This document shows, piece by piece, positions 3,664 to 55,146 of a stretch of 64,000 nucleotides of DNA. This DNA is from Leucobacter exalbidus (GTDB lineage: Bacteria > Actinomycetota > Actinomycetes > Actinomycetales > Microbacteriaceae), in NCBI RefSeq assembly GCF_017834145.1, contig NZ_JAFIDA010000001.1:1550001-1614000 (forward strand), read 5' to 3'. Under the pieces are notes generated by a model, which saw only the letters and a program-made list of their open reading frames with translations, had not been told where the DNA came from and did not search any database. The stretch's first letter is position 1, and each line of letters opens with the position of its first letter. The position numbers were made by a program, and so were the translations under genes.

Positions 3664-3680
3664 CGGATCCGGATCAAAAT
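3664..3680. repeat. GATCCGGATC palindromic repeat, copy 1
   Basis: GGATCCGGATCAAAATC lies immediately downstream of the PucR stop and before the convergent maf gene. The 10-bp palindrome GATCCGGATC with an A/T arm recurs at 29290, 40565, 45648 and 55133, and without the arms at 12613. This copy keeps only the right A-tract. Confidence 0.55.
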
Positions 3681-3688
3681 CGCGCCGA

Positions 3689-4339
3689 TTAGGCCAGCGC
3701 AGTGCCCAGGTTCCAGAGCGCGGGGTAGTCGTGGCCGAGGCCGGTGACGAGGCGGCGCAGCGCCGGCAGCGAGAGGCCCATCACGCAGCTGGGGGCACCC
3801 TCGATGCTTTCGATGAAGGCGCCGGCGAGGCCGTCGATCGCGAAGCCGCCCGCGAGCTCGAGCGGTTCGCCCGTGGCCACGTAGGCGGCCAGTTCGGCGT
3901 CGGTGACGTCGGCGGCGAGCGACACGAGCGCCGTATCCACCTCGCCGGCTGCGGCACGATGTTCGCCGCCCGAATGGTCAATCACCCAGTGCCCCGAGTG
4001 CAGCACGCCGGTGCGGCCGCGGTGCTGGCGTGAGCGCTCGAGTGCGACCTCGGGCAGGTGCGGCTTGCCGAGAATCTCGCCGTCGAGCAGAAACATCGAG
4101 TCGCCGCCGAGCACGAGGCCGTCGATCTCGTGGCCGTGCCTGCGCACCACGTCTTCGGCCTTCAGTCGGCCCAGGTACTCAGTGAGTTCGGGGGCGGTGA
4201 GGGCCCGGCCGAGCTCGGCCTCGCGGGCCGCAACCTCGGCGTCTTCATCGACCTCGGGTGAGAAACAGATCGGGTCGATTCCGGCAGCGCGCAGCACTGA
4301 GAGGCGGGCGGGGGACGTCGAGGCGAGGTACAAGCGCAT
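3689..4339 (-). CDS. maf: Maf-like nucleotide pyrophosphatase
   Basis: The 216-residue protein has the Maf signature LASTSPARLSVLRAAGI at its N-terminus (family form SxSPRR) and LVLGGDSMFLLDGEILGKP, which carries the conserved acidic residue of the active site. Family members hydrolyse non-canonical or modified nucleoside triphosphates to monophosphates. The start MRLYLAS (4339) is chosen because Maf proteins begin just before this strand and TAGAAT lies 7 nt upstream, fitting a leaderless mRNA. An upstream in-frame start at 4381 would add 14 unrelated residues. It is convergent with the PucR gene. Length and motifs look intact. Confidence 0.88.
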   Translation of the reverse strand: MRLYLASTSPARLSVLRAAGIDPICFSPEVDEDAEVAAREAELGRALTAPELTEYLGRLKAEDVVRRHGHEIDGLVLGGDSMFLLDGEILGKPHLPEVALERSRQHRGRTGVLHSGHWVIDHSGGEHRAAAGEVDTALVSLAADVTDAELAAYVATGEPLELAGGFAIDGLAGAFIESIEGAPSCVMGLSLPALRRLVTGLGHDYPALWNLGTALA

Positions 4340-4417
4340 AGGCCCGATTCTATGCCGTGGCCGCGATTTGCGCGGCGGCACTATCTATTGCGCGGCCCCC
4401 GTGTAAGGATCGTGGGC

Positions 4418-4744
4418 ATGGGGCACCTGATCTATGCGGCGACCACGGAATATCCGATCGAGGACCGTGCGCTCGCTCACCTCAAGGCGGCGGTGGGCAT
4501 GAAGCTGCGCCTGCAAGAAAGCTTCTTCATCAACTGGTCGCTCACGCATGAAGAGGGCAGCGGGCGCATCTCGCTGTGGTGTGCGCCGTCGATTCCGCTG
4601 ATCTTCAAGTTCTCGGGCAGCCGGCCCATCGAGCTGAACCAGGTGTGGGTGGAGGTGCTCACTGACCTCGCAAATACTCCGCGCGGGCTGCAGATCATCA
4701 CCGAGAAAGACGCTGAGCGATACCACAGCACGCACCGCGCCTAG
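4418..4744 (+). CDS. DUF7882-type small protein
   Basis: This 108-residue protein begins MGHLIYAATTEYPIEDRALAH and continues LKAAVGMKLRLQESFFINW and SLWCAPSIPLIFKFSGSRP. I recognise this as the small-protein family now called DUF7882, common and often multi-copy in Microbacteriaceae and sometimes mislabelled ATP-dependent DNA ligase. Its function is unknown. The start ATG 4418 is favoured over 4352 because it matches the family N-terminus and AAGGAT precedes it. It is divergent from maf. It supports the taxonomic guess but says little about physiology. Confidence 0.75.
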   Translation: MGHLIYAATTEYPIEDRALAHLKAAVGMKLRLQESFFINWSLTHEEGSGRISLWCAPSIPLIFKFSGSRPIELNQVWVEVLTDLANTPRGLQIITEKDAERYHSTHRA

Positions 4745-4776
4745 TGGCTGGGCTTCGTGAGCGAGGAGCATGACGC

Positions 4777-5234
4777 ATGAGTGGTGAGCAGTATTTCTGG
4801 CGGTCGGGGGCGGGGGCGACGCCGGTACAGCTGCCGCGTAACTGGGCAGTGGAGACGCACCGGATCAAGCGCCATCGGCCGCTGTGGTCAAAGATCGCGC
4901 GCGCATTTCACGCGCGGGTCATGAAGAACGATGCGGCGCGAGCCTACTTCGCCGCCGAACAGCAATCCAAAATTGCGCTGCGCGGGCACCAACAGGTCGC
5001 AACTCTTCTCGCAGCAGGGGTGCCGGTTCAGATTGCCACCTTGCGCGGCATCCAAGATACGCAGCAGACCATCAACGAGAACCCCATCCTGCTGCTCGAG
5101 GTCGAGGTGACGGGTGACCACGCTGAGATCGTGGCCCTTGTGCCGCGCATCGCCGTGCCCCGCCCGGGGAACGCATCGCGGTCATGGAACACCCCGAGAG
5201 CCTCACACTGCTGTATGCGGGATTAGAGGCTTAG
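4777..5234 (+). pseudogene. hypothetical gene with apparent 1-nt frameshift near its 3' end
   Basis: The frame from ATG 4777 reads well to about VALVPRIAVPRPG, then ends in a Ser/Arg/Cys-rich tail at 5226. One extra base in the G-run at 5167-5170 would instead give GERIAVMEHPESLTLLYAGL and a stop at 5234, a far more protein-like ending. The span to 5234 is 458 nt, one short of a multiple of three. I therefore read this as a single-base deletion in a homopolymer, real or a sequencing error. The corrected protein would have about 152 residues. I do not recognise the family. It is charged, with no membrane segment, and follows the DUF7882 gene by 32 nt. Confidence 0.55.
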
Positions 5235-5886: not shown

Positions 5887-6020
5887 ACCTCCAGGATACC
5901 GGCCGTGACACACATTCGATATAGGAGATTCAGCACAGCCGAGCACTGTTATAGCCTCGCCTCGTTGACGTCATCAGTTCCCCGCAGTGAGCCTGGGCGT
6001 GGAAGCACTCGAGTAAGAAT

Positions 6021-7431: not shown

Positions 7432-7441
7432 GCGCCCTGGA

Positions 7442-10805: not shown

Positions 10806-11411
10806 ATGGGTTACGCAAAGCATGACGAACGCCGCGAGCAAATTCTGTCGGCGGCGGCTGGGCTGCTCGCAGAGGCCGGGATGGAACAGCTCTCGGTGCG
10901 CGCCGTGGCACAGGCCGCGGGGATCGGCATGGGCACGCTCCGGCACTATTTCTCCAATCAGAAGTTGCTGCATGAAGCATTGATCCTCAAGCTCGTCGAT
11001 GAGGAAACCCAAGATTTCGAGATTCACGACCAGACGCTGCCCGCACCAGATCGCCTCGAGCGGTGCCTGTTGCAATTCGTGCCGACGCTCGACGAAGCAA
11101 CACACTTGCTCGACGTGTGGTTTGGCATGTATCGGGTGGGCCTAGACCCGTCTGGTTCGCCCTTCGCGCGCGAGTTCTTGGAGCTCTCGACCACCCGATC
11201 TCGCGAACGCATCAGGGAGTGGCTGTCGATCGTGTCAACCGAAGGGCACCTCGAGTCCTCCGCTGTGCGCACGCACGCGCTCGAGTTGAGTGCCCTGATC
11301 TCAGGGGTGTGCCTCGAGCTCGTCACCCCCGGCGCTGAGATGACCGTTGACGACGCGCGCAGCATCGTGAGCCGCGCCGCGCGAGCGATACCGAAAGCAG
11401 TACGCGCATGA
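10806..11411 (+). CDS. TetR-family transcriptional regulator
   Basis: The 201-residue protein has an N-terminal TetR DNA-binding domain: DERREQILSAAAGLLAEAG, then MEQLSVRAVAQAAGIGMGTL and RHYFSNQKLLHEAL. A variable ligand domain follows. ATG 10806 is set 7 nt after TATTTT and within the palindromic operator context. The gene overlaps the downstream hydrolase by 4 nt, so regulator and enzyme form one operon, probably autorepressed and induced by a substrate or product of the hydrolase. The ligand domain gives no clear clue to the inducer. Confidence 0.88.
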   Translation: MGYAKHDERREQILSAAAGLLAEAGMEQLSVRAVAQAAGIGMGTLRHYFSNQKLLHEALILKLVDEETQDFEIHDQTLPAPDRLERCLLQFVPTLDEATHLLDVWFGMYRVGLDPSGSPFAREFLELSTTRSRERIREWLSIVSTEGHLESSAVRTHALELSALISGVCLELVTPGAEMTVDDARSIVSRAARAIPKAVRA

Positions 11412-12658
11412 GCGGCGACGAACAGACCACAAGCGAGCGCGGCAGGGTGCGCCCGAATCGTAGGGAACGACAGCGAGCCAGCCTCATGAAGAGCGCCGGA
11501 GCGCTCACGCTGCCCCGCGATCTCTCGGGCGGCCGGTCGCTGCCACTTGCGTACGTGCGCAGCGGGCCACGATCAGGGCCTCCCGTGCTGGTGATTCCCG
11601 GCGGGCCAGGTCTTGGGTCAGTGATGCCCTATCAGCGATTCCGCGCAGTTGCGGCGAAGCAAGGGATCGACGTGCTCATGGTTGAGCACCGCGGTGTCGG
11701 CCTGTCGCGCAAGGCAAGCGACGGTCACGATCTGCGCCCCACAGACATCACTGTCGAAGAGGTGCTGGCCGATCTCGTTGCGGTGCTCGATGCCGAGAAC
11801 ATCGAGCAGATCTTGGTGTATGGGGCGTCGTACGGCAGCTATCTGGCGGCGGCGTTTGGGGCTCGTTACCCAGATCGGGTGAGCGGGATGATTCTGGATT
11901 CACCGATGCTCGACGCGCAGGGCAGACACGACACCGCGCGATCACTCAACGACTTGTATTGGCATGGCACCGCGGAGACTTCGGAGCACGCTTCTCGACT
12001 TCGTGCCCTGATTCAACGCGGAACGGTCTCCGTTGAAGATACCGGATTCCCCGTGCAACTTTTGCATGAGGCTGGCGGCCCTCATCTGGTGATGTCGATG
12101 CTCAACCTGTTGGAACGCGGCAAGGGCGCCCGCGTCTGGTCGTGGTTGAACCGCCTCGGCACCTCCGACGTCATGAAGCCCCGGCCTTTCCTGATGGAAT
12201 TCGATCTCGTCGCCCATTGCGCATTCACCGAACTCGGCTTCGGCCTCCCCCACGATGCTGAGCTTGGCCCACTGCGTAGCGATGCTTCCTTCGCCGCACT
12301 CTCCGAAGAGTGGCCGCCCTTTGAGCGCGAGCCTGTCGATGTGCGCGGGGCGCTTCCGCACTTCAATTGGCCCATGCTCGTACTCTCGGGAGACCGCGAT
12401 CTGCGTACGCCGCGATCGGTTGCAGAACAGGTGGTCCAGGCTGCGCCGCACGCAACCCTCGTTCCAATCAAAGACCACGGGCATAGCGCCCTCGACACCG
12501 CGCAGCTTCTTGCCCTCCAAGCAATCAGTCATCTCTCCATGGATCCAACCGCATCGCCATCTATCTTGAGCACGCTCAGCGGATCACGGCCGATGATGGC
12601 CCGGCTCATCTCGATCCGGATCATGATCGCCAAGATGCTCCCGCAGCGACGAAGCTGA
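11408..12658 (+). CDS. alpha/beta hydrolase, proline-iminopeptidase-like (S33)
   Basis: The 416-residue protein has the peptidase S33 features: oxyanion motif GGPGLGS (about residue 65), nucleophile elbow VYGASYGSYLAAA, acid in LSGDRDLRTP and histidine in KDHGHSALD. It also has EHRGVGLS, typical of proline iminopeptidase-like enzymes that release N-terminal residues or act on esters. No signal peptide is visible, so it is probably cytosolic. It overlaps the TetR gene by 4 nt and is likely under its control. The C-terminal 30 residues are Met/Ile-rich, and their coding DNA contains a GATCCGGATC copy (12613-12622). The substrate is unknown. Confidence 0.8.
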   Translation: MSGDEQTTSERGRVRPNRRERQRASLMKSAGALTLPRDLSGGRSLPLAYVRSGPRSGPPVLVIPGGPGLGSVMPYQRFRAVAAKQGIDVLMVEHRGVGLSRKASDGHDLRPTDITVEEVLADLVAVLDAENIEQILVYGASYGSYLAAAFGARYPDRVSGMILDSPMLDAQGRHDTARSLNDLYWHGTAETSEHASRLRALIQRGTVSVEDTGFPVQLLHEAGGPHLVMSMLNLLERGKGARVWSWLNRLGTSDVMKPRPFLMEFDLVAHCAFTELGFGLPHDAELGPLRSDASFAALSEEWPPFEREPVDVRGALPHFNWPMLVLSGDRDLRTPRSVAEQVVQAAPHATLVPIKDHGHSALDTAQLLALQAISHLSMDPTASPSILSTLSGSRPMMARLISIRIMIAKMLPQRRS

Positions 12659-15852: not shown

Positions 15853-17275
15853 GTACCTTACGTATATTGATCGCGTAGCCCAAGTCGTGCCTCACATACT
15901 TTGATCGCATACTTCTACGCTGAACGAGTATGAACAAGGGCGTGGTGTCAGTGGCGACACGTATCGAAGTCACCAAACAATTGAAGCAGGCCTACAAGAC
16001 TGCTTCTCGCGCTGAGAAGTCCAAAATTCTGGACCAGTTCTGCGCGACTACCGGGATGTCACGCGTGACAGGCAGGCGCTACCTGACCAGCCCACACCTC
16101 GGTACCAAGAACGTCACCCAGATCGACCATCGACGGCATCGACCGACCAAATACTCGGCCGCTTCCCAACGCGTGCTGGTGTGGCTGTGGCGAGTCATGA
16201 TGTACCCCTGCGGGAAATACATGCAGCAGATGCTCCCCGAATGGATTCCCCGACTTGAAGCGCATCATGAACTCGTTTACGGGCGTCACGACTACAGCCC
16301 CGAGGTGCGAGCCGAACTGTTGCAGATGTCTGCCGCCACAATCGACCGATACTTACGCGAACACCGTCGGGCGTTGGAACTGAAGGGCATCTCAGCCACC
16401 CGGTCGGGCGCGCTGCTGCGCACCTCGATCACGATCCGGAAAGCCGGGGATGAAGCCGAACACGAGCCCGGGTTTATGGAGTGTGACACCGTCGCGCATT
16501 GCGGCCCAACACTCAAGGGCGAGTTCGCGAGAACCCTCACCGCGACCTGCGTATACACGGGGTGGACACACTTGGAAGTCCTCCGCAATAACGCGCGTGT
16601 ACACATGATCGCCGCGCTCGATCGTCTCGAGAAAGCGTTGCCGTTTGATGTTGCCGGGCTCGACTGCGATAACGGCTCCGAGTTCATCAACGACCAAGTC
16701 GTGGCGTGGGCGGGTGAACGGAAGGTGTTCTTCACGAGGTCCCGGCCCTACAAGAAAAATGATCAAGCGGTCGTCGAGTCCAAGAACAATCACATCGGGC
16801 GCAAGTATGGCTTCTACTACCGCTACGACACCGCCGACGAACGAGACGTCCTCACGAAACTCTGGCAGGTGGTGATGTGGAAGATGAACTTCTTCACCCC
16901 CACGAGAAAGCCAGTCGGGTGGAGCGTGGATGGGCAGGGGCGCAGGCGGCGCGTGTATGACGCTCCGAGGACTCCGTATCAGCGGCTGCTCGATGCCGGG
17001 GTACTCTCCCACGCTCAAGAACGTGCACTGCGGGCACAGTATGCGAAACTCAACCCGGTCGAGCTGACCCGTGACATTGTCCGGTATCAGGGCATGCTCA
17101 TCACCAAAGCACGATGGAAGACCGAGGTCCTCACGGCCGAGGTTGCAGACGCGAAGAAGAACCGGCGGAAACGACAGACCGGCGGCGTGAAGATTCGCTC
17201 CGCCTGAGCCGAGGCTACGCGATCAAAGCACGTGAGGCACAAGTAGAGTTACGCGATCATCTTGACATGAGGCAC
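15853..17275. mobile_element. insertion sequence with two-module inverted ends
   Basis: The element carries one transposase gene. The inner inverted repeats are 15887-15911 and 17216-17240, agreeing at 22 of 25 positions; each has GTGCCTCAC and TTTGATCGC. A second, less exact copy lies outside on each side: TTGATCGCGTA at 15867-15877, with GTACCTTAC at 15853, and on the right TACGCGATCAT at 17250-17260, with ATGAGGCAC ending at 17275. Each end therefore seems to hold two tandem modules, perhaps transposase-binding sites. The outer limits are approximate and no clear target duplication is visible. Confidence 0.7.
15930..17207 (+). CDS. DDE/integrase-core transposase
   Basis: The 425-residue protein has an N-terminal helical DNA-binding part (RIEVTKQLKQAYKTASRAEK, then TGMSRVTGRRYLTS) and an rve-type catalytic core: FMECDTVAHCGPT (first D), GLDCDNGSEFINDQVV (second D) and NDQAVVESKNNHIGRKYG (E). 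All three acidic residues are in place and the frame is complete, so it may be active. It fills most of the IS between the inverted ends. I do not assign a firm IS family; it resembles the integrase-core transposases often placed in ISNCY-like groups. Confidence 0.85.
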   Translation: MNKGVVSVATRIEVTKQLKQAYKTASRAEKSKILDQFCATTGMSRVTGRRYLTSPHLGTKNVTQIDHRRHRPTKYSAASQRVLVWLWRVMMYPCGKYMQQMLPEWIPRLEAHHELVYGRHDYSPEVRAELLQMSAATIDRYLREHRRALELKGISATRSGALLRTSITIRKAGDEAEHEPGFMECDTVAHCGPTLKGEFARTLTATCVYTGWTHLEVLRNNARVHMIAALDRLEKALPFDVAGLDCDNGSEFINDQVVAWAGERKVFFTRSRPYKKNDQAVVESKNNHIGRKYGFYYRYDTADERDVLTKLWQVVMWKMNFFTPTRKPVGWSVDGQGRRRRVYDAPRTPYQRLLDAGVLSHAQERALRAQYAKLNPVELTRDIVRYQGMLITKARWKTEVLTAEVADAKKNRRKRQTGGVKIRSA

Positions 17276-24210: not shown

Positions 24211-25644
24211 TTACGCCTTGTGGAGTGCGCGTGCCGCGTCGGTGATCGCGCCCGTCATCGACGGGTACACAGTGAACGCCGAGGCCACCTGATCAACGGT
24301 GAGGCGGTGCTCAACCGCGAGGGCGAGCGGGAAGATCAGCTCGCTGGCGCGGTGCGCGACGATGACGCCGCCGATGACGGTGCCCGAGGCCTCCCACGCG
24401 AACAGCTTCACGAAGCCGTCGGTGAATCCGATCATCTTGGCGCGCGGGTTCACGCTGAGGGGCACGGTGTGCGTAACGGCCTTCGCCATCGCGCTCGCAT
24501 CGGCGAGGGTGTGCTCGTTCCAGCCGACCGTGGCGATCTCGGGGTACGTGAACACGTTCGCCGCGACGTTGCGCAGATCGATCGGGCGCACGAAGTCACC
24601 GAGGGCGTGCATGATCGCGGTGCGACCCTGCATCGAGGCGACCGAGGCGAGCGGGAAGAAGTTGGTGCAGTCGCCGGCGGCGTACACCGACGGAACGGCG
24701 GTGCGTGCGACCTTGTTGACCTCAATGTGGCCGCTGTCGGTGAGCGTGACGCCGGCCTCTTCGAGGCCGAGGCCCTGCGTGTTGGGAATGGAGCCCACAG
24801 CCATGAGGCAGTGCGTGCCCTCAACGGTGCGGCCGTCTTCCAGCTCAACAACGATGCCGTCCTTGGTGCGGGTGACGGTCTGTGCGCGCGCCTTCGACAT
24901 CACGTTCATGCCGAGGCGCGTGAACTCGCGCTCGATCACGAGTGCGGCGTCAGAGTCCTCGCCGGGCAGCACCTGTTCGCGGCTCGACACGAGGGTGACC
25001 TCTGAGCCGAGGGTGCGGTACGCGTTGGCGAACTCTGCGCCGGTCACACCCGAGCCCACGACCACGAGGTGCTCGGGGATGGCCTTCAGGTTGTAGAGCT
25101 GCTTCCAGGTGAGGATGCGCTCGCCATCGGGCTTCGCGGTGTCGAGCTCGCGCGGGCGCGAGCCCACGGCCACCACGATGGTGTCGGCTTCGACGCGATC
25201 AAAGTCGGTGCCACCGGCGTTCGTTGACACGAGCACGGCGCCGGGGCCGTCAAGGCGCCCCTCGCCCTGCACGACGCGCACGCCTGCGGCTTCGAGTGAC
25301 TGCAGCATGTCGTGCGACTGCGCGCCCGCCATCGCGATCAGACGCTTGTTGACCGCGGCCAGGTTGACCGCAATCTCGGGGCGCACGGGCTTGCCGTCGC
25401 CGCCGGGCACGAAGGCCTGCACGCCGAGGCGGCCGGCATCGCGCACGGCCTGCACGGCGCCCGCGGTCGCAATCAGACTCTTCGAGGGCACCACGTCGGT
25501 GAGCACTGCGGCACCGCCCACGCCAGCGCGTTCGATCAGGGTAACTTCTGCACCCTGTTGTGTGCCCGCGAGGGCTGCTTCGTAACCGCCGGGACCGCCG
25601 CCAAGCACAACGATGCGGTGCTTGCGTTCAAAGGATTTCGCCAT
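24211..25644 (-). CDS. lpdA: FAD flavoprotein NAD(P)H:quinone reductase, LpdA/Rv3303c-like
   Basis: The 477-residue protein has the pyridine-nucleotide disulfide oxidoreductase fold: FAD site VVLGGGPGGYEAALAGTQQG, NAD(P) site LVVVGSGVTGAEFANAYRTL, SVYAAGDCTNFFPLASVA and the C-terminal dimer domain (FTYPEIATVGWNEH). The position that holds the redox CxxxxC pair in true dihydrolipoamide dehydrogenases reads GGAAVLTDVVPSKSLI, with no cysteines. This matches actinobacterial Rv3303c-type enzymes that reduce quinones instead. TAGACT lies 6 nt before ATG 25644, again a leaderless spacing. Confidence 0.85.
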   Translation of the reverse strand: MAKSFERKHRIVVLGGGPGGYEAALAGTQQGAEVTLIERAGVGGAAVLTDVVPSKSLIATAGAVQAVRDAGRLGVQAFVPGGDGKPVRPEIAVNLAAVNKRLIAMAGAQSHDMLQSLEAAGVRVVQGEGRLDGPGAVLVSTNAGGTDFDRVEADTIVVAVGSRPRELDTAKPDGERILTWKQLYNLKAIPEHLVVVGSGVTGAEFANAYRTLGSEVTLVSSREQVLPGEDSDAALVIEREFTRLGMNVMSKARAQTVTRTKDGIVVELEDGRTVEGTHCLMAVGSIPNTQGLGLEEAGVTLTDSGHIEVNKVARTAVPSVYAAGDCTNFFPLASVASMQGRTAIMHALGDFVRPIDLRNVAANVFTYPEIATVGWNEHTLADASAMAKAVTHTVPLSVNPRAKMIGFTDGFVKLFAWEASGTVIGGVIVAHRASELIFPLALAVEHRLTVDQVASAFTVYPSMTGAITDAARALHKA

Positions 25645-25676
25645 GCCGCCAGTCTACCGGCGTGGGTCGCGCGAGG

Positions 25677-26147
25677 TTACTGCGCCGAGCGCAGTTTGGG
25701 GCAGTTTTCGCTGCTGCACCCGGGCCACCGCTTCTCAAGCCGGCAGTCAAAGCGGTTCAGATAGGACTCAAGCGTTGCTGCGGCGTGCTGCGCCGTAAAC
25801 ATTTGCAGGCTGCGGGCCTCGGCCGCATCCACCCACAACCACTCGGCGAGCCACGCGTCAACGGCCGTGGAGAGGGCGACGCCGGGCTCGCCATTGGGGC
25901 GCAGCCAGGTGACGCCCACGCGATCCGGAACATGCAGCGCCGCAGCAGCCTCAGCCACCGAGGCGCCCGCTATCGCGAGATCGCCCTCAATAAACACGCG
26001 CCCGTAGGCGGCCCCGTCGAGGTCGTGCAGCCAGGCATCGAGTTCGGCCAGGTCGTGCGCGTTCGCCAACGCAACGACCGGCGTGATCCCCTCGGGGTCG
26101 AGAACCGGCGCCCCCTGTGGGGAATCTGCGGGCTCAAACATCATCAC
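25677..26147 (-). CDS. small SIP-like protein under iron-box control
   Basis: The 156-residue protein (GTG 26147 or ATG 26144) resembles the C-terminal SIP domain of siderophore-interacting reductases: LHDLDGAAYGRVFIEGDLAI, RVGVTWLRPNG and LAEWLWVDAAEA. The C-terminus has three cysteines (FDCRL, PGCSSENC). The family call is moderate, but it is supported by a DtxR/IdeR-like box directly on its promoter. It probably takes part in siderophore-iron handling. TAAGAT lies 6 nt before the GTG. It is divergent from the PLP decarboxylase. Confidence 0.5.
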   Translation of the reverse strand: MMMFEPADSPQGAPVLDPEGITPVVALANAHDLAELDAWLHDLDGAAYGRVFIEGDLAIAGASVAEAAAALHVPDRVGVTWLRPNGEPGVALSTAVDAWLAEWLWVDAAEARSLQMFTAQHAAATLESYLNRFDCRLEKRWPGCSSENCPKLRSAQ

Positions 26148-26156
26148 CCCCTCATC

Positions 26157-26175
26157 TTAGGTCATCCTTACCTAC
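26157..26175. promoter_or_regulatory. DtxR/IdeR-type iron box
   Basis: TTAGGTCATCCTTACCTAC matches the 19-bp DtxR/IdeR consensus (TTAGGTTAGGCTAACCTAA) at 14 positions, with both outer half-sites strong. It overlaps the -10-like TAAGAT (minus strand, 26159-26154) of the SIP-like gene. Iron-loaded DtxR/IdeR would repress that gene. The divergent decarboxylase starts about 150 nt away and may be unaffected. Confidence 0.8.
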
Positions 26176-26327
26176 ATCGGAGGAATTCACGGGAAGTCGC
26201 CAGATTGCAGTTCGTGCCCGCCCGGGTATCTGCTTGCGCATATGATCGAATGCACGGGCGATGCCGCTTTCGACTGCCGCCTGAGCGCATTCCGCGCGAC
26301 AATGACGTTGGAAGGACTGCTGCACAG

Positions 26328-29192
26328 ATGACGAGGATCAACGCCTCCCACGCTCCGCTCCCCACCGCAAACATTTTTGGGGGGCCAGACGCGCTCGGCG
26401 GAAACAGCCTCATTCACGCCGATGTGAATAGCGCAGCGCTGATTACCCACCCCGCTTCGGGCAGCGGGCACCAGGTGCCCGAGGCCACCCTCGAGCGCGA
26501 CCCGGGCATGCCCGCCAGCACCTGGCGGCTGCGCAGTGACGCCTGGGAGTACCTGCGTTTCGCGGTGAAGCGGCTCGCGCTCGCTGGCGAAGGCGAAGAT
26601 GCGCTCGCACAAGACGGCGAGGTGCCGCGGTCACTGCGCGCCCTCGAAACCATCGAGATGTATTGGGCGGGCTTTGGCCAGCGCTACGTTGCCGCGATCG
26701 GCGAGCTGCTCGAGGCCGGCGATTACAAAACCGCGCTCGACCGCATCGGTCGCGTCGTCAACCGGCTGCGCGCCGACATTAGCGACGAGCCGCGCGAAGA
26801 ATTCATGGACGCCGAAGAGCGCGCCGAGCGCGTGGGCGACGCCGACCCGCGCCCCCGCTTCGAGGTGCTCGTGGTCGACGAGACCACCGAGGCCGAGCGC
26901 GACGCGACCCGCGCCGAGGGCCTGCGCCTGCGCTCAGCCGCCGACACCTTCATCTACGAGTTCGTGATCGTGCCGTCAGCCGATGACGCCGTCGCCGCCA
27001 TTCTCACCAACCCCAACATTTTGGCGTGTGTGGTGCGCCCCGGGTTCACCGAGCACACCCGCCAGCGCCTCAGCCGCGATCTCGCCGAGTCGGTGCAGAT
27101 CGCCCGCTCAGAGGTCGCCCCCGGCTCTGCCCCCGAGCGTACTTCGCTCGCGAGCGTGCAGCGCGTACTCGGCCTCGCCGACACCCTCATCGCGCTGCGC
27201 CCCGAGCTCGACCTGTACCTGATGGCTGGCGCGCACATCGAAGAGCTCGCGGGGGCCACCACCCGGCGCTTCCGCCGCATCTTCCGCCGCGAAGATCAGC
27301 TCGAGTTGCACCTCACGCTGCTGCGCCGCGTCTCGCACTTGTTCGACACTCCCTTCTTCACCGCGATTCAAGATCACGCACGCCGCCCCGTGGGTGTCTT
27401 CCACGCGCTGCCCATCGCGCGCGGTGGCTCGGTGGTATCGTCGCGCTGGATTCGTGACCTCGCCGATTTCTACGGTCTGAACCTGCTGCTTGCTGAGACA
27501 AGCGCCACCTCGGGCGGCCTCGACTCACTGCTCGCCCCGGTGCGCACCCTGAAGAAGGCGCAAGAGCTCGCGGCCCGTGCATACGGCGCCAAGCACACGT
27601 TCTTCGTCACCAACGGCACGTCGACCGCCAACAAGATCGTGCACCAGGCCCTCGTCTCACCCAACGAGGTGGTGATGGTTGACCGCAACTGCCACAAGTC
27701 ACACCATCACGCCGTGATGCTCACGGGCGCACGCCCCGCCTACCTCGAGGCGTACCCGCTCAACGAGTTCGCCTTCTACGGCGCAGTGCCCATCTCACGC
27801 ATCAAGCAGATGCTGCTCGATTACCGTGCCGCCGGCCGCCTCGATGAGGTACGCATGCTGACGCTCACCAACTCGACGTTTGACGGCATCGTCTACGACC
27901 CCGAGCGCGTGATGGCCGAGTGCCTCGCGATCAAGCCCGACCTCGTGTTCTTGTGGGATGAGGCGTGGTTTGCGTTTGGCGCGTTCCACCCCGTCACCCG
28001 CCGCCGCACCGCGATGGCTTCGGCGCAGCGGCTCGAGCAGCGGCTCACCACCGACGCCCACGCGATCGCATACCGCGAGCAGCAGGCCCGCCTGTTTGAT
28101 GCAGAGGGCAACCCAGCTTCTGACGCCGTGTGGCTGCACGAGCGCCTCATCCCCGCGCCCACGTCACGGGTGCGCGTCTACGCCACCCAGTCGACACACA
28201 AGACACTCACCGCGCTGCGTCAGGGCTCGATGATTCACGTCTACGACCAAGACTGGGGCCGCGAGGCCGAAGAGCCGTTCCACGAGGCGTACATGACGCA
28301 CACCTCCACCTCGCCGAACTACCAGATTCTCGCGTCCCTCGACATTGGCCGCCGCCAGGTCGAGCTCGAGGGCTTCGATCTGGTGCAGCGTCAGCTCGAC
28401 CTCGCGACGAGCCTCGCGCAGGCGATCAGCCGCCACCCGCTGCTGCGCCGCACCTTCAGGGTGCTCACCGCGCACGACCTGATTCCCGAGGAGAACCGCG
28501 AGGTGGGCCGCCCGATGCCCCTGCGCGACGGACTCTCCACGATGTGGGAGGCCTGGCGCACCGACGAATTCGTGATCGATCCGAGTCGCATCACCATCGA
28601 GATCAGCCGCACGGGCGTCGACGGCGACACGTTCAAGCATGAGCACCTGATGGATCGCTACGGCATTCAGGTGAACAAGACGAGCCGCAACACGGCCCTG
28701 TTCATGACGAACATCGGCACCTCGCGCAGCGCCATCGCGTACCTCATCGAGGTGCTCGTGAAGCTCGCCGAGAAATTTGAGGACACGCACACGCAGCGCG
28801 ACCCCGATCACACCCGCGCGATCACCGAGGCGATCGATCTGCCGATGCCCCCGCTGCCCGACTTCAGCTCGTTCTCTGACGGGTACGCGACCGATGGGGT
28901 GCTGCCCGATGGCGATATGCGCGCCGCGTTCTTCCGCGGCCAGCGCCGCAAGTACGTCGAGCATGTGCTGCCCGATGTGCTGTGGGCGCGGGTCGCCGCG
29001 GGCGCAAAGCCGGTCTCGGCCGGCTTCGTCACCCCCTATCCCCCCGGATTCCCCGTGCTCGTGCCCGGCCAGGTCATCACCCCCGAGATTCTCGCGTTCA
29101 TGCGGGTGCTCGATACCCGCGAGATTCACGGCTACGACCCCGTGCGCGGCTACAGGGTGCTGCTCGAGGAGACCCCGGCGGTCGAGAGCTAG
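26328..29192 (+). CDS. Orn/Lys/Arg decarboxylase-family PLP enzyme
   Basis: The 954-residue protein belongs to the fold-type I Orn/Lys/Arg decarboxylases. The PLP domain (about residues 360-750) has FFVTNGTSTANKIVHQAL, NCHKSHHHAVMLTGARPAYL, LTNSTFDGIVYD, LVFLWDEAWFAFGAFHP and the PLP lysine at about residue 625 in TQSTHKTLTALRQGSMIH. The long N-terminal part (about 1-340) is larger than in most members and includes a receiver-like stretch (FEVLVVDETTEAERDATRAE). The enzyme would decarboxylate ornithine, lysine or arginine to a di- or polyamine. ATG 26328 follows GGAAGGA. Substrate choice cannot be read directly. Confidence 0.88.
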   Translation: MTRINASHAPLPTANIFGGPDALGGNSLIHADVNSAALITHPASGSGHQVPEATLERDPGMPASTWRLRSDAWEYLRFAVKRLALAGEGEDALAQDGEVPRSLRALETIEMYWAGFGQRYVAAIGELLEAGDYKTALDRIGRVVNRLRADISDEPREEFMDAEERAERVGDADPRPRFEVLVVDETTEAERDATRAEGLRLRSAADTFIYEFVIVPSADDAVAAILTNPNILACVVRPGFTEHTRQRLSRDLAESVQIARSEVAPGSAPERTSLASVQRVLGLADTLIALRPELDLYLMAGAHIEELAGATTRRFRRIFRREDQLELHLTLLRRVSHLFDTPFFTAIQDHARRPVGVFHALPIARGGSVVSSRWIRDLADFYGLNLLLAETSATSGGLDSLLAPVRTLKKAQELAARAYGAKHTFFVTNGTSTANKIVHQALVSPNEVVMVDRNCHKSHHHAVMLTGARPAYLEAYPLNEFAFYGAVPISRIKQMLLDYRAAGRLDEVRMLTLTNSTFDGIVYDPERVMAECLAIKPDLVFLWDEAWFAFGAFHPVTRRRTAMASAQRLEQRLTTDAHAIAYREQQARLFDAEGNPASDAVWLHERLIPAPTSRVRVYATQSTHKTLTALRQGSMIHVYDQDWGREAEEPFHEAYMTHTSTSPNYQILASLDIGRRQVELEGFDLVQRQLDLATSLAQAISRHPLLRRTFRVLTAHDLIPEENREVGRPMPLRDGLSTMWEAWRTDEFVIDPSRITIEISRTGVDGDTFKHEHLMDRYGIQVNKTSRNTALFMTNIGTSRSAIAYLIEVLVKLAEKFEDTHTQRDPDHTRAITEAIDLPMPPLPDFSSFSDGYATDGVLPDGDMRAAFFRGQRRKYVEHVLPDVLWARVAAGAKPVSAGFVTPYPPGFPVLVPGQVITPEILAFMRVLDTREIHGYDPVRGYRVLLEETPAVES

Positions 29193-29478
29193 GGCGTTTC
29201 GCGCCCGGGTGCTGCGGGGTCGTATTGAGCGATCGTGCGGCGAGCCCGGGTGTTACGAAGCTTGGGTGCTGCGGGGCTTGGTCTGGTTTGATCCGGATCA
29301 GGCCCCGCCGCCGTCTGCCCCACCCTTGCCCGTACCTTCGTACAATCGCGGGGCGGCAACACCGTGAAATTGTCTGCAGCGCGAACTGCTGCCGCGCCGA
29401 TAGGCTGACTCGCAGATGACGCGCGCAGCATCGCACGCAGTCTTACCCCACCCCAGCACCGTCGCTTGAGGAGTCAGT
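29193..29478. other. 286-nt intergenic region with palindromic repeat
   Basis: It contains GATCCGGATC copy 2 at 29287-29300 and two GGGTGCTGCGGGG segments near 29207 and 29266. TACAAT at 29341-29346, just after GTACCTTCG, may be the -10 box of the downstream amine oxidase gene, though no good -35 is seen. No gene is evident. Confidence 0.4.
29287..29300. repeat. GATCCGGATC palindromic repeat, copy 2
   Basis: TTTGATCCGGATCA between the decarboxylase and the amine oxidase. It keeps the left T-tract and part of the right A-tract, and lies within a larger GGGGC/GCCCC inverted context. Confidence 0.55.
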
Positions 29479-38804: not shown

Positions 38805-40034
38805 ATGAGGGTAATTGTTGTTGGCGCGGGCCTGGCCGGGCTCACCGCGGCATGGCAGCTCAGCAAGGCCGGGCACGACTGCACCGTGCTCGAGGCGCGT
38901 GACCGCGTGGGCGGCCGCACCTGGTCGACACAGCTGCCCGGCGGGGAGTGGACCGAACGCGGCGGCGAGTATGTGTTTCCCACCGAGTTTGCGATTCGGC
39001 AGCTCGCGGCCGAGGTCGGGGTGCCCATCCTCACGCACGGTGTGCGGTACGGTCGGCGCACCGTCAACGGCCGCATCATCTCGTTTGACGAGCTGGGCGA
39101 AACGAGCGCGCACGTCGAACGCACGCTCGCGACGATGCTGCAAGACGGCGAACAGCAGGTATCGCTCGAGCGCGCCTTCGCCGAGGCGCTCGGTGAGGGG
39201 TACCGGCTCGATCCCGTATATCGCCGCACCACCACGTCGGCCGCGGCCGACCCCACGCTGATCAGCGCCGAGGCCGTGCTGCTGCATGAGTCGGCCACCG
39301 CGGGCGGCTACGTCGAAGACGGCGGCCGGTTTGTAGGCGGCAACCAGTCATTGTCGATCGAGCTGGCGCGCAGGCTCGGCGACCGGGTACGCCTCGAGCA
39401 CCCGATCTCGGGCGTTGACCAGTCGGCGGTGGGCGTGCAGGTGCGTCTCACCGACGGCTCGACCCTCGAAGCCGACGCCGCGGTGATCGCGGTGCCACTG
39501 CCGCTGCTGCGCCGCCTCGAGCTCGGATTCTCACTCACCCCCGCACAGCAGCTCGCCCTCGACCACCGGTTCATGGGCGTCGCCGCGAAGCTCGGGGTGC
39601 CGCTCGCGAAGGTTGACGGCGATATCGCGCTACAAAACCCCGATCACACGTGGTGGTCGTGGCGCTCCATGTCGATCGACGGCGAGCACCGCATCAACGC
39701 CCTATCGTGCTTCGCGGGCGGCCCCTTCGCCCTCGATGCCCTCGATGTCACGCAGGGCTCGGCCACCTGGGTCGAAGCGCTGCGCACGATGCGCCCCGAG
39801 CTTGAAATCGCTGGCGAACCGCTGCTCACCACCTGGGCCGATGACCCGTGGGCGCGCGGCTCATACTCGGCGCCCGGCCTCGACTGGGCGGCCGCCGACG
39901 CCACCGCGTTCACGGTGCCCGCGGGCCGCGTCGCCATCGCGGGCGAACACACGGGGCTCGAGCAGTCACTCTCGGGTGCCGTCGCCTCGGGCTACCGCGC
40001 GGCTACCGCACTCGCGCCGCTGCTGGCATCATGA
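38805..40034 (+). CDS. flavin-containing amine oxidase
   Basis: The 409-residue protein has [45 protein letters not shown] and the C-terminal [20 protein letters not shown] with GYRAA. The fold matches monoamine/polyamine oxidases, but the sequence is clearly distinct from the 29479 gene. AAGGAGGAACAC precedes ATG 38805, the strongest ribosome site seen here. It overlaps the next gene (PucR) by 4 nt and is divergent from the polyamine transporter, so the trio probably forms an uptake-oxidation unit. Confidence 0.9.
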
Positions 40035-41542
40035 CCTTCACCGTGCGGTCGCTGCTCGATCTGGCTGCGGTGCGCACGATCTCACTCACGCCCGCGGCTG
40101 GCGAAGCGCGCGAAATCACCTGGACCCACGTGTGCGAGCTGGCCGAGCCATGGAAGTGGCTGGGGCCCGGAGCCCTCGTGCTCACCACCGGCGGCGGCGT
40201 GCCCACGACCACCGATGCGCAGTGCGAATACATTGCTGGGCTGCACGATGCGGGCATCGCGGCGCTCGTGGTGCACGCGGGCCAGCTGCAGGCGCCCCTC
40301 ACCCGCCCCACTCTCGCGTTCGCCGCGCAGCTCGGCTTTGCCGTGCTCGAAACGGCGAGCGATGTGCCGTTCATCGCGGTCGAAACGGCGGTCGCGAACG
40401 GCGTCAAACAGCAGGCTGAGCTGCGGGCGCACGCCACCGAACGGCTCTACGCGGCGCTCGATCAGCACCCGGTCAACGCCCCCATCGACGCCCTGCTGCT
40501 CGAACTCGCGCAGGTGCTCGGCGGCTCACTGCAGCTGGAGCGTGCGCAGGCAGTGAGCGATTTTGATCCGGATCCCGCCGCGCCGCCCGCCCCCGGCCGC
40601 CTCGCGCTGCCGCTCGCCGGGGCCGTGCACGCCGGGGCGGCGGGGCGGCACTCCCCCAGCCTGGTGTGGACGGGCCCGGGCGTCGCCCCGCGCGAGCTGC
40701 TGCAGCACGCCGCGGGCATCGTCGGCAGCGCCCTCGCAGTGAAGCTCGCCTCGCACCGCGCCGAGTGGATGCACGGGTCGCTGCTGCTCGCAGATCTTTG
40801 CGATGCGACCGTGCCGTCGGCGCCCGCCGCGCACCTCGTGGCCGCGTATGGCATCGAGCCGCCATATGTGTTGGCGGTGGCGCCCGGCGATGACCCCCGC
40901 AGCCTGCTCGACGAGGTGCACGCCGGGTTCGCTGAGCTCAGCGTGCCGGTGCTCGCCACCGTGAAAGACGGGCAGGTGCTGCTGCTCGCGCGCGAGGGCA
41001 GCGAGTGCGATCGCGCGTTCGACGCGCTCGCGGGCGAGACCACCCGCATCGGCGTCAGCGCCACCTTCAGCGACTTCGACGGGGTATCGGCCGCGCTGGG
41101 GCAGGCCTGCAGCGCCGTGATTCGCAACCACCAGTCGGGGTATGTGCTCAGGTTCGAAGAGCACGCGACCACGTCACTGTTCTTGCCGCAGGGCACCGAC
41201 CAGCTGCGCAACATTGCGCGGCAGGTGCTCGGCCCGCTCACCACCTACGATCAACAGCGGGGCACCTCACTCACCCACACGCTGCAGGTGTTTTTGGAGG
41301 AAAACCGCAGCTGGGTGCGCGCGTCAGAGCGGCTCTACGTGCACCGACAGACGCTGATCGCGCGGGTGTCACGCATTGAAAAAATTATCGACCGCGATCT
41401 CTCTTCGATGGAGGATGCGGCCGAGTGCTGGCTGGCCGTTCAGGCCGCCATTGGGTGCGGCGACCTCACCCCCAGCTCGGCTCAGGGTGAGGCCGTCGAC
41501 GATACTGCTGGGTTAGTCGCGGGGGCAGACACAGCGATCTGA
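40031..41542 (+). CDS. PucR-family transcriptional regulator
   Basis: The 503-residue protein has a PucR N-domain (about residues 10-125: [20 protein letters not shown] and ALVLTTGGG) and a C-terminal HTH (about 410-470: [20 protein letters not shown], then [15 protein letters not shown]). It overlaps the amine oxidase by 4 nt, so it likely controls that gene and the divergent transporter. Residues 178-186 (DFDPDPAAP) are encoded by a copy of the GATCCGGATC palindrome within a Pro/Ala linker, suggesting the repeat inserted into a tolerant site. Otherwise the protein resembles the 1960 regulator in layout only. Confidence 0.88.
40562..40575. repeat. GATCCGGATC palindromic repeat, copy 3 (inside the pucR-like CDS)
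   Basis: TTTTGATCCGGATC lies in frame in the second PucR gene and encodes the FDPDP part of a low-complexity linker between domains. Confidence 0.55.
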
Positions 41543-44706: not shown

Positions 44707-45780
44707 CTATGGGCGCAGCGGCAGGTTCAGCTCACTCGTGAAAGATCGTTCCACACCTGAAACCGGGTCAGTGAACGCGATCTCACTGGCGAGCAGCTGC
44801 AGCGGGGTCGAGAAGTCATCGACCTCGATGCCCAAATCGGTGGGGTACAGCGGGTCGCCCGTGATCGGAATACCCGCGCCCCACATGTGCATGCGCAGCT
44901 GGTGCGTGCGGCCCGTGTGCGGGGTGAGGCGGTAGCGACCCAGCACGGGCGGCTGCGCTGCGAGTTCGCCCGGTAGACCCTGCGCTTCGTAGCCGATGCC
45001 CGCGCTCTCTGCCGCGGTGAGCGCGCGCTCAAACTCGATCGTTGAGCGCGCATTGATCTGCGCCCCGGGCACCACCTCAGCCTGGTGGGTGCCGCGCTGC
45101 TTCGCCAGGTGGTTCTCGACCGTCAGCGGAAACGTGAGCGCGGGGTTCAGCTGCGCGACCGCGTGATAGGTCTTGCGCACCTCACCGCGGCGCTGAAACA
45201 TCGACTGATAGGCGCCGCGCCAGCGCCGCTCGGTGGTGAGCACCAACAGCCCCGAGGTCACCCGGTCGAGCCTGTGCATGGGCGTCAGCTCGGGCAGCCC
45301 GAGCTCGTGACGCAGCCGCACCACCACGCTCTGCAGCACGTGTTTACCGCGCGGAATCGTCGATAAAAACGCCGGCTTATCGATCACGATCAGCCGGTCA
45401 TCGCGGTGCACAATGCTGAGCTCGCCCGGCACCTCGGCCTCGGCGGCGAGGTCGCGGTGAAACCACACGAAGGTGTTGGGGGTGTAGCGGTCCCCCGCCC
45501 GCACCGGCGCTCCCGTTTCGTACACGAACCGGCCGTCGGCGATAAACGCATCGACGTCGAGGTGCATCCCCACCCGCGCTACGAGCCACTCGCGCATGGT
45601 CTCCCAGGCCGGCTTGGTCGCGGCGGCTGGGTTGGCTGGGGCGGCTTGATCCGGATCCGGGGCAGCATGCGCCGCTGGAAGCTGGGCCGCGGGGACCGGG
45701 GCGCGCGAGGCGCCGTCTGCCGTGCGCAGCCAGGCGGCATCGAGGCCGAAACGAGAGGGAAGCGGGGAACGCGGGGGCAC
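44707..45780 (-). CDS. RluA-family pseudouridine synthase
   Basis: The 357-residue protein has an S4-like N-terminal part, then the RluA catalytic core: VIDKPAFLSTIPRGKHVLQS, the catalytic aspartate in MHRLDRVTSGLLVLT, QRRGEVRKTYHAV and LTPHTGRTHQLRMHMWGAGI with GDPLYP. It makes pseudouridine in rRNA or tRNA; the exact site is unknown. Residues 41-45 (PDPDQ), within an Ala/Pro linker ahead of the core, come from a copy of the GATCCGGATC palindrome. The linker makes the protein longer than most RluA enzymes. Confidence 0.88.
   Translation of the reverse strand: MPPRSPLPSRFGLDAAWLRTADGASRAPVPAAQLPAAHAAPDPDQAAPANPAAATKPAWETMREWLVARVGMHLDVDAFIADGRFVYETGAPVRAGDRYTPNTFVWFHRDLAAEAEVPGELSIVHRDDRLIVIDKPAFLSTIPRGKHVLQSVVVRLRHELGLPELTPMHRLDRVTSGLLVLTTERRWRGAYQSMFQRRGEVRKTYHAVAQLNPALTFPLTVENHLAKQRGTHQAEVVPGAQINARSTIEFERALTAAESAGIGYEAQGLPGELAAQPPVLGRYRLTPHTGRTHQLRMHMWGAGIPITGDPLYPTDLGIEVDDFSTPLQLLASEIAFTDPVSGVERSFTSELNLPLRP
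45646..45657. repeat. GATCCGGATC palindromic repeat, copy 4 (inside the rluA-like CDS)
   Basis: TTGATCCGGATC lies in frame within the N-terminal linker of the pseudouridine synthase and encodes PDPDQ. The adjoining DNA (GGCGGC, GGGTTGGC) is repetitive. Confidence 0.55.
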
Positions 45781-51560: not shown

Positions 51561-51589
51561 GGTCCCCTCCCCTATGAGGTTGATGCCAG

Positions 51590-52405: not shown

Positions 52406-52586
52406 TGCGCGTTCTCCTCATCTGACGTACGGGGTTCGCGTCGAGTCTGACAGCTGTCGGTTGAAGATTTACTGTACCCGCTGTGATCTAAACGTAATGA
52501 GAAAATCATCACCGTGAAACTAAACCTATTAAAACGTATGTTATTGTTTCAACATTAGTTCGACAATGATGTTGAGGAGCGAGAAC
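52406..52586. promoter_or_regulatory. AT-rich divergent promoter region (GntR / ABC transporter)
   Basis: The stretch near 52490-52560 is markedly AT-rich for this DNA (CTATTAAAACG, TATTGTTTCAAC) and should hold the transporter promoter. ATGA-GAAAA-TCAT (52497-52509) is a small inverted repeat, and AACGTA occurs twice. These are candidates for GntR binding; none is certain. Confidence 0.4.
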
Positions 52587-53741: not shown

Positions 53742-53864
53742 CCACACGGCCGCCCGCGCACTAACGCACTGACGCGACACCGCACACGTTGTAACCACCG
53801 CACCACCGCACGATTCAACACCGCACTACCCCTCCCCATTCACGGGGCATCACACAAAGGAGTC

Positions 53865-55055
53865 ATGATGAACAAGAAGATGCTGGCCGTTCCGCTGGCC
53901 ATGGCGGCGGCCTTGGGCCTCGCGCTCGTCGGCTGTTCTAGCAGCACCGGCGGCGACGCCGGCGGCAGTGGCGAACTCAAGATCGACGTCCCCGATATCG
54001 CAGCAGTGAGCGAGATCGGCGACTTCGAGAAGGAGCTCAACATTGTCTCGTGGTCGGGCTTCGTTGAGCCCGAGTGGGTGAAGCCGTTCGAAGAGGAGAC
54101 CGGCTGCAAGGTGAACCGCAAGATTGCGGGCACCTCAGACGAAATGGTGCAGCTCATGCGCACCGGTAACTACGACCTCGTCTCAGCTTCGGGCGACGCC
54201 AGCCTGCGCCTCATCGTGGGCGGCGATGTGCAGCCCCTCAACCTCGACCTCATCCCCAACTTCGGCGACGACATCGTTGAGGGCATGCAGGGCCAGGTCT
54301 ATGACACGCTCAACGGCAAGTCATACGGTGTGCCCATCGGCCGCGGCGCCAACATTCTGCAGTACAACACCGATGTGGTGAAGGAAGCCCCCACCAGCTG
54401 GGATGTGGCGTGGGAGTCAGACAGCCCGTACGCCGGCAAGATCATTGGCTACGATGCCCCGATCTACATCGCTGACGCTGCCGTCTACCTGATGGCGCAC
54501 AACCCCGACCTGGGCATCACGAACCCCTACGCGCTCGACGAGACGCAGCTCGCTGCCGCCGTCGACCTGCTGAAGCAGCAGAACGAAGTCATCGGCGAAT
54601 ACTGGTCTGACCCCACCGCCCAGATCACCTCGTTCAACGGCGGCGACGTGGTCGTCGGCACCTCGTGGGAGGTACTGAAGCGCCTGTCAGAGAACCCGAA
54701 GCTCGAGGGCGTGCTGCCCGAAGAGGGTTCGACCGGCTGGTCTGATGCGTGGATGCTTGCCGCAGAGTCTGAGCACCCCAACTGCGCATACGAGTGGATG
54801 AACGTCACCTCAGCGCCCGAGGTGAACGGCCAGATCGCCATGAACTTCGGCATGGCTCCCGCCAACGCCGCGTTCTGTGAGCTCAACGATGAGGCCCGCA
54901 AGCACTGCGAGGACTTCAACGCCACAGACGAGGAGTACTTCTCGAACGTGTGGTTCTGGACCACCCCCATCGAGCAGTGCATCGACGGTCGCACCGACGT
55001 CACCTGCACGAACTTCCAGCAGTGGACCGACGCCTGGATGACGGTCAAGGGCTAA
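53865..55055 (+). CDS. potD: extracellular polyamine-type solute-binding lipoprotein, second set
   Basis: The 396-residue protein has a signal and lipobox (LGLALVGC), then a PotD-like domain: ELNIVSWSGFVEPEWVKPFE, RKIAGTSDEMVQLMRTGNYD and GVPIGRGANILQYNTDVVKE. Paired cysteines near the C-terminus (AFCELNDEARKHCEDF, EQCIDGRTDVTC) may form disulfides and are not seen in the first set. A strong hairpin follows, probably to let the binding protein be made in excess of the permeases. Confidence 0.9.
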   Translation: MMNKKMLAVPLAMAAALGLALVGCSSSTGGDAGGSGELKIDVPDIAAVSEIGDFEKELNIVSWSGFVEPEWVKPFEEETGCKVNRKIAGTSDEMVQLMRTGNYDLVSASGDASLRLIVGGDVQPLNLDLIPNFGDDIVEGMQGQVYDTLNGKSYGVPIGRGANILQYNTDVVKEAPTSWDVAWESDSPYAGKIIGYDAPIYIADAAVYLMAHNPDLGITNPYALDETQLAAAVDLLKQQNEVIGEYWSDPTAQITSFNGGDVVVGTSWEVLKRLSENPKLEGVLPEEGSTGWSDAWMLAAESEHPNCAYEWMNVTSAPEVNGQIAMNFGMAPANAAFCELNDEARKHCEDFNATDEEYFSNVWFWTTPIEQCIDGRTDVTCTNFQQWTDAWMTVKG

Positions 55056-55071
55056 CCCCGCAGACCTCGCT

Positions 55072-55104
55072 AGCCCGGTGGCGGGTCTCCCCCGCCACCG
55101 GGCT
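55072..55104 (+). terminator. intra-operon hairpin after the potD-like gene
   Basis: AGCCCGGTGGCGGG pairs perfectly with CCCGCCACCGGGCT around a 5-nt loop. It follows the binding-protein stop inside an operon, a usual place for partial termination or mRNA 3' protection. Confidence 0.7.
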
Positions 55105-55129
55105 GTACGGCCCGGGCTGGCTCAAGCGC

Positions 55130-55146
55130 TTTGATCCGGATCAAAA
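55130..55146. repeat. GATCCGGATC palindromic repeat, copy 5 (full length)
   Basis: TTTGATCCGGATCAAAA is the most complete copy, a 16-bp palindrome plus one A, between the binding-protein and permease genes. It follows CTCAAGCGCT, a string that also occurs at 57032-57041. Confidence 0.6.

Follow-up and report, generated by a model that had tools for sequence, protein, structure and literature searches.

Why should one 10-base palindrome, GATCCGGATC, recur six times in 64 kb of the Leucobacter exalbidus chromosome, both between genes and inside them? The window, that is, the whole stretch of 64,000 nucleotides that was analysed, covers bases 1,550,001-1,614,000 of the single 3,181,803-base contig of this genome (labelled G000 below). 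Exact copies start at window positions 3666, 12613, 29290, 40565, 45648 and 55133, just where an earlier note on this DNA had placed them. That note proposed either a palindromic element invading coding regions, as in Rickettsia, or a genome-wide site. From our comparison with relatives, the palindrome appears to be this species' version of a genus-wide family of words with a fixed GATCC core and an extension that varies by species. The reading that we prefer, far from assured as it is, is that the GATCC words may form a self-recognition motif for DNA resembling an uptake tag.

A sharp 10-base word in excess across the genome

The six window copies compare with a mean of 0.11 in dinucleotide shuffles, and none of 100 shuffles reached six. 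The whole genome holds 265 copies in 3.18 Mb (83 per Mb), and a 464-kb sample, which combines the window with twenty 20-kb stretches, has 42 copies where an order-3 Markov model expects 0.23. The shuffles, the genome count and the Markov expectation together rule out a chance origin; the earlier claim of an excess over base composition, for which a genome-wide count had been proposed as the test, survived that count. Synonymous codons shuffled inside each gene served as the null model in genes, and a Markov-2 model served between them. On this basis 27 of the 42 sampled copies lie in genes (about 3 expected) and 15 between genes (0.1 expected), the latter class including some missed coding sequence because the gene calls (81% coding, about 19% uncalled) come from a home-made codon model. 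That model left, for example, a half-site at 16433 uncalled within the open reading frame (ORF) 15930-17207, and it placed a minus-strand gene inside the ORF 25560-29192.

The sharp unit is the 10-mer, often preceded by T. When the flanks of the sampled copies were aligned, position -1 alone was clearly biased (T 42, G 21, C 17 and A 4 of 84 readings), nothing was conserved past about -3, and no common sequence extended beyond about 12 bp. The 16-mer TTTGATCCGGATCAAA, taken earlier as the repeat unit, has to give way to the 10-mer: the genome has a single exact copy of it, and 11 copies if one mismatch is allowed. Among the matches listed for other genomes' contigs (our own genome left out), the 16-base form is found at single places in varied genomes. 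The T/A tracts said to flank five of the six window copies are present on both sides at 55133 alone; at 3666, 29290 and 40565 they stand on one side and at 45648 there is TT only, and 12613 is the bare core that had been described, with no T/A tract.

This flank profile rules out an inserted element, since the flanks share nothing further. A mobile palindromic repeat of the Rickettsia type, or one resembling repetitive extragenic palindromic sequences or miniature inverted-repeat transposable elements, would agree with copies lying both within and between genes, as Rickettsia palindromic elements do. These, however, are long inserted elements, whereas we observe a 10-bp word with no insertion footprint, no extended homology and no conserved base beyond about -3, and genes hold some two thirds of the sampled copies, in all three frames. 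The earlier likening to an element that invades genes has thus been abandoned, and we consider a mobile repeat barely credible. The other proposal, a genome-wide site, is borne out by the 265 copies and by the occurrence of sampled copies both between genes and, in all three frames, inside them.

The palindrome consists of two GATCCGG half-sites overlapping head to head on CCGG, hence it can be read from either side. GATCCGG occurs 245 times in the G000 sample, 84 of these within palindromes, and the one-sided word is itself enriched (182 vs 84 in genes, 63 vs 15.9 between genes). The full palindrome nevertheless stands about ten times above the half-site prediction (42 vs 4). One-base deviations from it are in excess at positions 1-3 (27 vs 4.2 expected in the sample) and show no excess at positions 4-5, the central CCGG (8 vs 8.4 expected).

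Words of relatives share the GATCC core

Counts of the palindrome itself ranged from 0 to 129 in 24 genomes of the same genus, with 117 in one further member that came from a family-level search drawing on 85 genera. Other genera of the family, represented by 117 genomes that were compared for palindrome count alone, had 0 to 50 copies, and the order's other families, represented by 15 genomes, had 0 to 68. Above-expectation values on few copies were seen in G016 (5 vs 2 in genes, 3 vs 0.2 between genes) and also in G010, G014 and G011.

Words were then sought without any preset word by ranking 7-mers in 14 genus samples (13 relatives and G000) and in three samples from other families; the relatives' samples comprise 60 to 240 kb per genome, and some of their intergenic sets are small. 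A GATCC-containing 7-mer ranked first in eight of the 14 genus samples (G000, G016, G024, G013, G023, G008, G014 and G011) and was listed below first rank in G010, G018 and G005; no GATCC word stood among the words listed in G004, G015 and G001. As for the other families, none was listed in G026 and G028, and G037 had a weak one in fifth place. Intergenic sequence alone gave GATCC-related top 8-mers in G000, G024, G013, G023 and G011 and in no other sample; whether 7-mers or 8-mers were ranked, GATCC words did not lead in most high-GC members (G011 excepted).

All the sampled genus words begin with GATCC: GATCCGC in G013, GATCCARC in G024, GATCCYGM in most others, and GATCCGG with its palindrome in G000. 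GATCCGC in G013 reached 3.7x in genes (233 observed, 62 expected) and 4.2x between genes (41 and 9.8), and GATCCARC in G024 reached 2.4x (62 and 25) and 12.5x (26 and 2.1). For GATCCYGM the excess in genes and between genes was 3.4x (160 and 48) and 3.8x (35 and 9.1) in G023, and 4.2x (142 and 34) and 3.5x (12 and 3.4) in G008. Ratios for the same word, given in the same order, were 3.0x and 3.6x in G005 (from 60 kb only), 3.2x and 2.4x in G011, 2.7x and 2.1x in G016, 3.1x and 2.1x in G001, 2.5x and 2.1x in G004, 2.6x and 1.9x in G014, 2.5x and 1.6x in G015, 2.0x and 1.1x in G010, and 2.3x and 1.0x in G018. Eleven of the 14 genus samples thus had GATCCYGM at 2.0x or above in genes, and eight of those 11 had it at 1.9x or above between genes.

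The words separate the genomes, though imperfectly: GATCCYGM stood at 0.9x in genes and 1.2x between genes in G000, at 1.6x and 1.3x in G013 and at 1.1x and 1.8x in G024, and GATCCGC at 0.5x and 0.4x in G000. Enrichment was strong in G000, G013, G024, G023 and G008, and weak or confined to genes in several high-GC members. The words of G013, G024 and G023 are non-palindromic, and in G013 the palindromic form analogous to ours, built on GATCCGC, is as frequent as its half-sites predict (12 vs 10.7). Agreement with phylogeny could be tested once, on G023 and G008: they share GATCCYGM and are sisters in a PucR tree (11 rows, support 100/100), in which G013 and G006 stand on long branches. In the three genomes of other families we found no clear counterpart of the genus words, GATCCYGM standing at 1.0, 1.5 and 2.0 within genes and at less than 1 outside them.

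Placement in genes, along the chromosome and on its strands

Coding copies of the palindrome in G000 use three frames (17, 5 and 5 of the 27), the commonest reading being DPD (17 of 27), and they exceed the synonymous shuffle in every frame (16 vs 2.2, 5 vs 0.1 and 4 vs 0.4). The prevalence of DPD could point to a bias in codons or peptides (DPD, IRI, SGS) with no cause at the DNA level, and in most samples all four GATCN words somewhat exceeded the synonymous shuffle. However, an excess in all frames, together with a far larger one between genes, makes such a bias highly improbable. The DPD tripeptide was found at 1.96x expectation in the G000 proteome sample, within the range of 0.87 to 2.87 in 13 other same-genus samples, and therefore gives no sign of wholesale peptide insertion. 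Codon usage alone and peptide-driven repeats are ruled out by the synonymous shuffle and the tripeptide test.

The two DNA strands are balanced in the seven genomes tested (for example 118/127 in G000, 136/139 in G013, 42/46 in G024 and 96/99 in G023), which rules out a polar chromosome signal such as Chi or the FtsK-orienting polar sequences (KOPS). No difference in density was detectable along the chromosome, 100 of the 265 copies falling in the first 41% (p 0.29). Spacing over the first 1.3 Mb of G000 is more even than chance would give (3 gaps below 2 kb vs 14 expected), whereas the remaining sample agrees with chance (4 vs 4.3; pooled 7 vs 18).

A binding site for a chromosome-organising or nucleoid protein, whose specificity would drift between species, could be suspected from the 265 sites, their dyad symmetry in G000, their lack of a clear density difference along the chromosome and the rarity of close neighbours in its first 1.3 Mb. 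KOPS, Chi, matS and parS are regionally clustered, though, and the palindrome shows neither such clustering nor DNA-strand polarity; its spacing is random in the other sampled part of the genome, and its presence within genes and close to their ends looks more like tolerance than like a role tied to position. We regard a nucleoid protein as an unlikely explanation.

With respect to gene direction, the half-site of G000 is split evenly (91/91) and the words of G013, G024 and G023 almost evenly. Intergenic density pooled over four genomes was highest between convergent genes (1.61 per kb), lower between tandem genes (0.92) and lowest between divergent genes (0.40), and divergent gene pairs were avoided in three of the four genomes. 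A control with 400 sets of permuted words, from which 128 sets with fewer than 15 hits were dropped, left 272 sets; total intergenic hits of the real words were far above these (114 vs at most 38). Coding copies also lie within 25 codons of a gene end more often than expected (6 of 27 vs 1.8). Close non-overlapping pairs of words showed no general excess (2 vs 7.0 in G000, 19 vs 18.6 in G013, 7 vs 10.3 in G023 and 3 vs 1.9 in G024), and two inverted pairs capable of forming a hairpin were found between convergent genes (L198:13057/13075 and L215:18764/18783). An operator or terminator of ordinary transcription would fit these few pairs, as well as the three window copies that lie 8 to 97 bases past a gene end. 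It is very unlikely nonetheless, with 27 of 42 sampled copies inside genes, divergent regions the poorest when pooled, and the half-site of G000 equally frequent in both orientations relative to genes.

A possible tag for DNA uptake

We favour an uptake tag because it accounts together for the dialects, the non-palindromic forms and the placement of the GATCC words. A protein would read the word and act in DNA uptake: a DNA-binding receptor would recognise it, fragments bearing it would be preferentially taken up and recombined, and by this recombination the word would accumulate wherever it does little harm.

The core, the dialects and the placement resemble those of the DNA uptake sequences (DUS) of Neisseriaceae and the uptake signal sequences (USS) of Pasteurellaceae, as do the copy number, in the hundreds or above per genome, and the even distribution over the DNA strands (PMC3630211, PMC12616744). 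As described in the accessible part of PMC3630211, DUS are, like the GATCC words, short words present in hundreds to thousands of copies, with a conserved inner core and lineage-specific variants, a permissive placement within and between genes and occasional inverted pairs. Their sequence and phylum are different, however, the G000 form is a perfect palindrome and some genomes of our genus hold two words; moreover, transformation and a specific receptor such as the minor pilin ComP belong to DUS and would be hypothetical for the GATCC words. USS, from what the available text of PMC12616744 states, likewise combine a core with dialects and occur at 31 to 913 per Mb, compared with 83 per Mb for our palindrome, but the two AT-rich blocks downstream of USS have no clear equivalent here, G024 showing a weak AT rise at +11 and at +15 to +19.

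The same 2025 paper, in the part available, gives uptake sequences as known only from Neisseriaceae and Pasteurellaceae (PMC12616744). Somewhat more doubtfully still, DNA-uptake sequences may have arisen independently in this actinobacterial genus, on a GATCC core and in four or more dialects, one of which has turned into a palindrome that overlaps itself and reads from both ends. Such an origin would be the third, and the first beyond the Proteobacteria. Another actinobacterium, Micrococcus luteus, takes up DNA by means of ComEA, ComEC and Flp pili (PMC6370729, in its accessible part), and no uptake sequences have been reported for mycobacteria according to the portion of PMC10526031 available. 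Judging by titles or the beginnings of abstracts, none of the papers listed in our searches was about the present motif. Dialects of uptake sequences clearly exemplify how bacteria label their own DNA for exchange. An actinobacterial dialect system, if real, would provide an independent origin for comparison, with a receptor that could be found by co-variation.

Several observations weigh against an uptake tag. We found no natural transformation documented in the literature for this genus. The excess of the palindrome over its half-sites in G000 fits a dimeric binding protein or a methylase equally. Nor is there one word per genome: G011 holds both GATCCGG (2.3 in genes, 2.5 between genes) and GATCCYGM. 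GATCCGG is enriched in genes only in G014 (2.6; 0.5 between genes) and G018 (2.7; 0.2), and such genes-only enrichment is unspecific, because G037, from another family, has GATCCYGM at 2.0 in genes and 0.4 between them. Control words mostly lay at 0.5 to 2x, with two exceptions between genes, both on small numbers, for GATCGGC (3.2 in G005, on 4 copies) and GATCACG (2.1 in G004). Orientation relative to genes is uneven in G016 (138/86) and G011 (39/60), divergent regions are not avoided in G023 (0.87 per kb), and the low divergent share is a modest shift, 8% of the 272 permuted-word sets being as low. A depletion in genes of atypical codon usage was inconsistent, with 0.54 per kb in the lowest quartile and 0.25 in the highest in G000, and 0.84 and 2.20 in G008. 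Finally, inverted pairs, the form in which DUS serve as terminators, are rare here, although we do not regard them as essential to uptake. In Neisseriaceae they occur in high numbers (Frye 2013, PMC3630211, in the part accessible).

The competence genes would permit uptake. ComEC, ComEA and a T2SSE (secretion/pilus) ATPase have matches in all 25 genus genomes. Their support is weak because control genomes match too (ComEC 10 of 14, ComEA 9 of 14, the ATPase 14 of 14) and ComEA matches exceed the family cut-off in only 6 of the 25. In G000, ComEC (G000:C1:343724-344440, open frame of 574 aa) and ComEA (303417-303608) are 40 kb apart; in G013, G023, G024 and G010 the two lie within about 1 kb, with a ComEC frame above 800 aa.

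Methylases and the cyanobacterial HIP1

In cyanobacteria a scheme has been proposed, in the available part of Elhai 2015 (PMC4390886), where a methylase coupled to biased repair acts on the highly iterated palindrome HIP1. A comparable methylase reading GATC or the whole palindrome, likewise coupled to biased repair, might create and keep the sites in our genus. Every genus word contains GATC, as do HIP1 and its substitutes GGGATCCC and TCGATCGA, while other substitutes listed in the same accessible text, such as GGCGCC, are without it. The GATC-containing palindrome of G000, the replacement of words between species and the lack of excess deviations at the centre are all reminiscent of HIP1 and its alternates as the available text presents them (PMC4390886). 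The preference for the full palindrome in G000, and deviations in excess at positions 1-3 and not at the central CCGG, agree with such a scheme as well.

Methylase families give a divided picture. PF01555 was matched in 20 of 25 genus genomes, PF00145 in 17, and the Dam-type PF02086 in four, one of them below cut-off. When PF01555 enzymes were grouped by length, one of 283-333 aa was present in 14 of the 25 genomes, G000 included, and palindromes are more numerous in the genomes that have it (p 0.015 by a rank test, with no correction for phylogeny). However, G013, which has the largest enriched word family, has no match to PF00145, PF02086 or PF01555, the three families searched; G024 has none to PF02086 or PF01555, though four to PF00145; and G000, G013, G023 and G024 are all outside the four genomes with PF02086. 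The presence of PF00145 is not associated with palindrome copy number (p 0.43). In addition, the dialects of G013, G024 and G023 are non-palindromic, unlike HIP1, the palindromic form in G013 being no more frequent than its half-sites predict. A scheme of the HIP1 kind therefore seems to us improbable, to about the same degree as a nucleoid protein; if it held, the cyanobacterial puzzle would extend to an unrelated phylum.

The PF01555 enzyme of G000, a CcrM/YhdJ-like DNA methylase (L005:13535-14398, that is G000:C1:13535-14398), carries one copy of GATCCGGATC inside its gene (L005:14024), and its neighbours, judged by eye, bear no resemblance to a nuclease. The single PF00145 C5-methylase match in G000 (L157, G000:C1:1830433-1831362, minus strand) has a copy of GATCCGGATC about 1 kb away (L157:457). 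We rejected a C5 methylase as the shared cause, given that the enzyme of G000 has only 30-36% identity to the five with which it was compared and that none is present in G016 despite 106 copies of the palindrome.

The window copies and their surroundings

At the first window copy (3666..3675) a PucR-family gene (1954-3657, plus strand) and a Maf gene (3689-4381, minus strand) converge, with the palindrome between their ends. The second (12613..12622) is inside an alpha/beta-hydrolase gene (11408-12658, plus strand), where it reads SIRIM about 15 residues before the stop. The third (29290..29299) is intergenic, 97 bases past the end of an Orn/Lys/Arg-decarboxylase-like gene (25560-29192, plus strand), and the last (55133..55142), which is the genome's sole exact TTTGATCCGGATCAAA, stands between a solute-binding-protein gene (53865-55055, plus strand) and an ABC permease gene (55193-56077, plus strand). 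One-sided half-sites, GATCCGG or CCGGATC, number 25 in the window between 2218 and 62344 (11 on the plus strand and 14 on the minus strand), the one at 45654 overlapping the palindrome at 45648.

The remaining two copies had been assigned to linkers of two proteins, an assignment that holds for one of them. The copy at 40565..40574 lies in a second PucR-family gene (40031-41542, plus strand, by the home-made call; the longest ORF starts at 39848) and encodes FDPDP in a hypervariable, indel-rich linker. Twenty-four genomes had some PucR match, and from these ten relatives were aligned, all ten without the DPDP residues. The copy at 45648, with an overlapping third half-site that makes the chained GATCCGGATCCGG (45648..45660), belongs to an RluA-type pseudouridine synthase ORF (44707-45780, minus strand) and corresponds to residues 42-45 of the longest ORF. 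Fifteen of 24 same-genus genomes match this protein at E<=1e-40, and because all 15 alignments start at residue 48 or later, the copy falls outside the conserved protein, within either the 5' flank or an N-terminal extension that is not conserved. Retention of the DPDP or DPDQ residues by distant relatives had been named in the earlier note as an argument against the repeat; the relatives compared are without them, though both places are variable or non-conserved. The window thus has two PucR-family regulators, and 3 to 15 PucR-like matches were found per genus genome.

Two minor observations concern the relatives. In G016, four direct copies of GATCCYGM with a spacing of 18-20 bases are found at about L187:12031-12095, in sequence called intergenic. 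In 10 of 13 genus samples, GATCCGAG belongs to the four GATCCNNN words that fall furthest below a Markov expectation.

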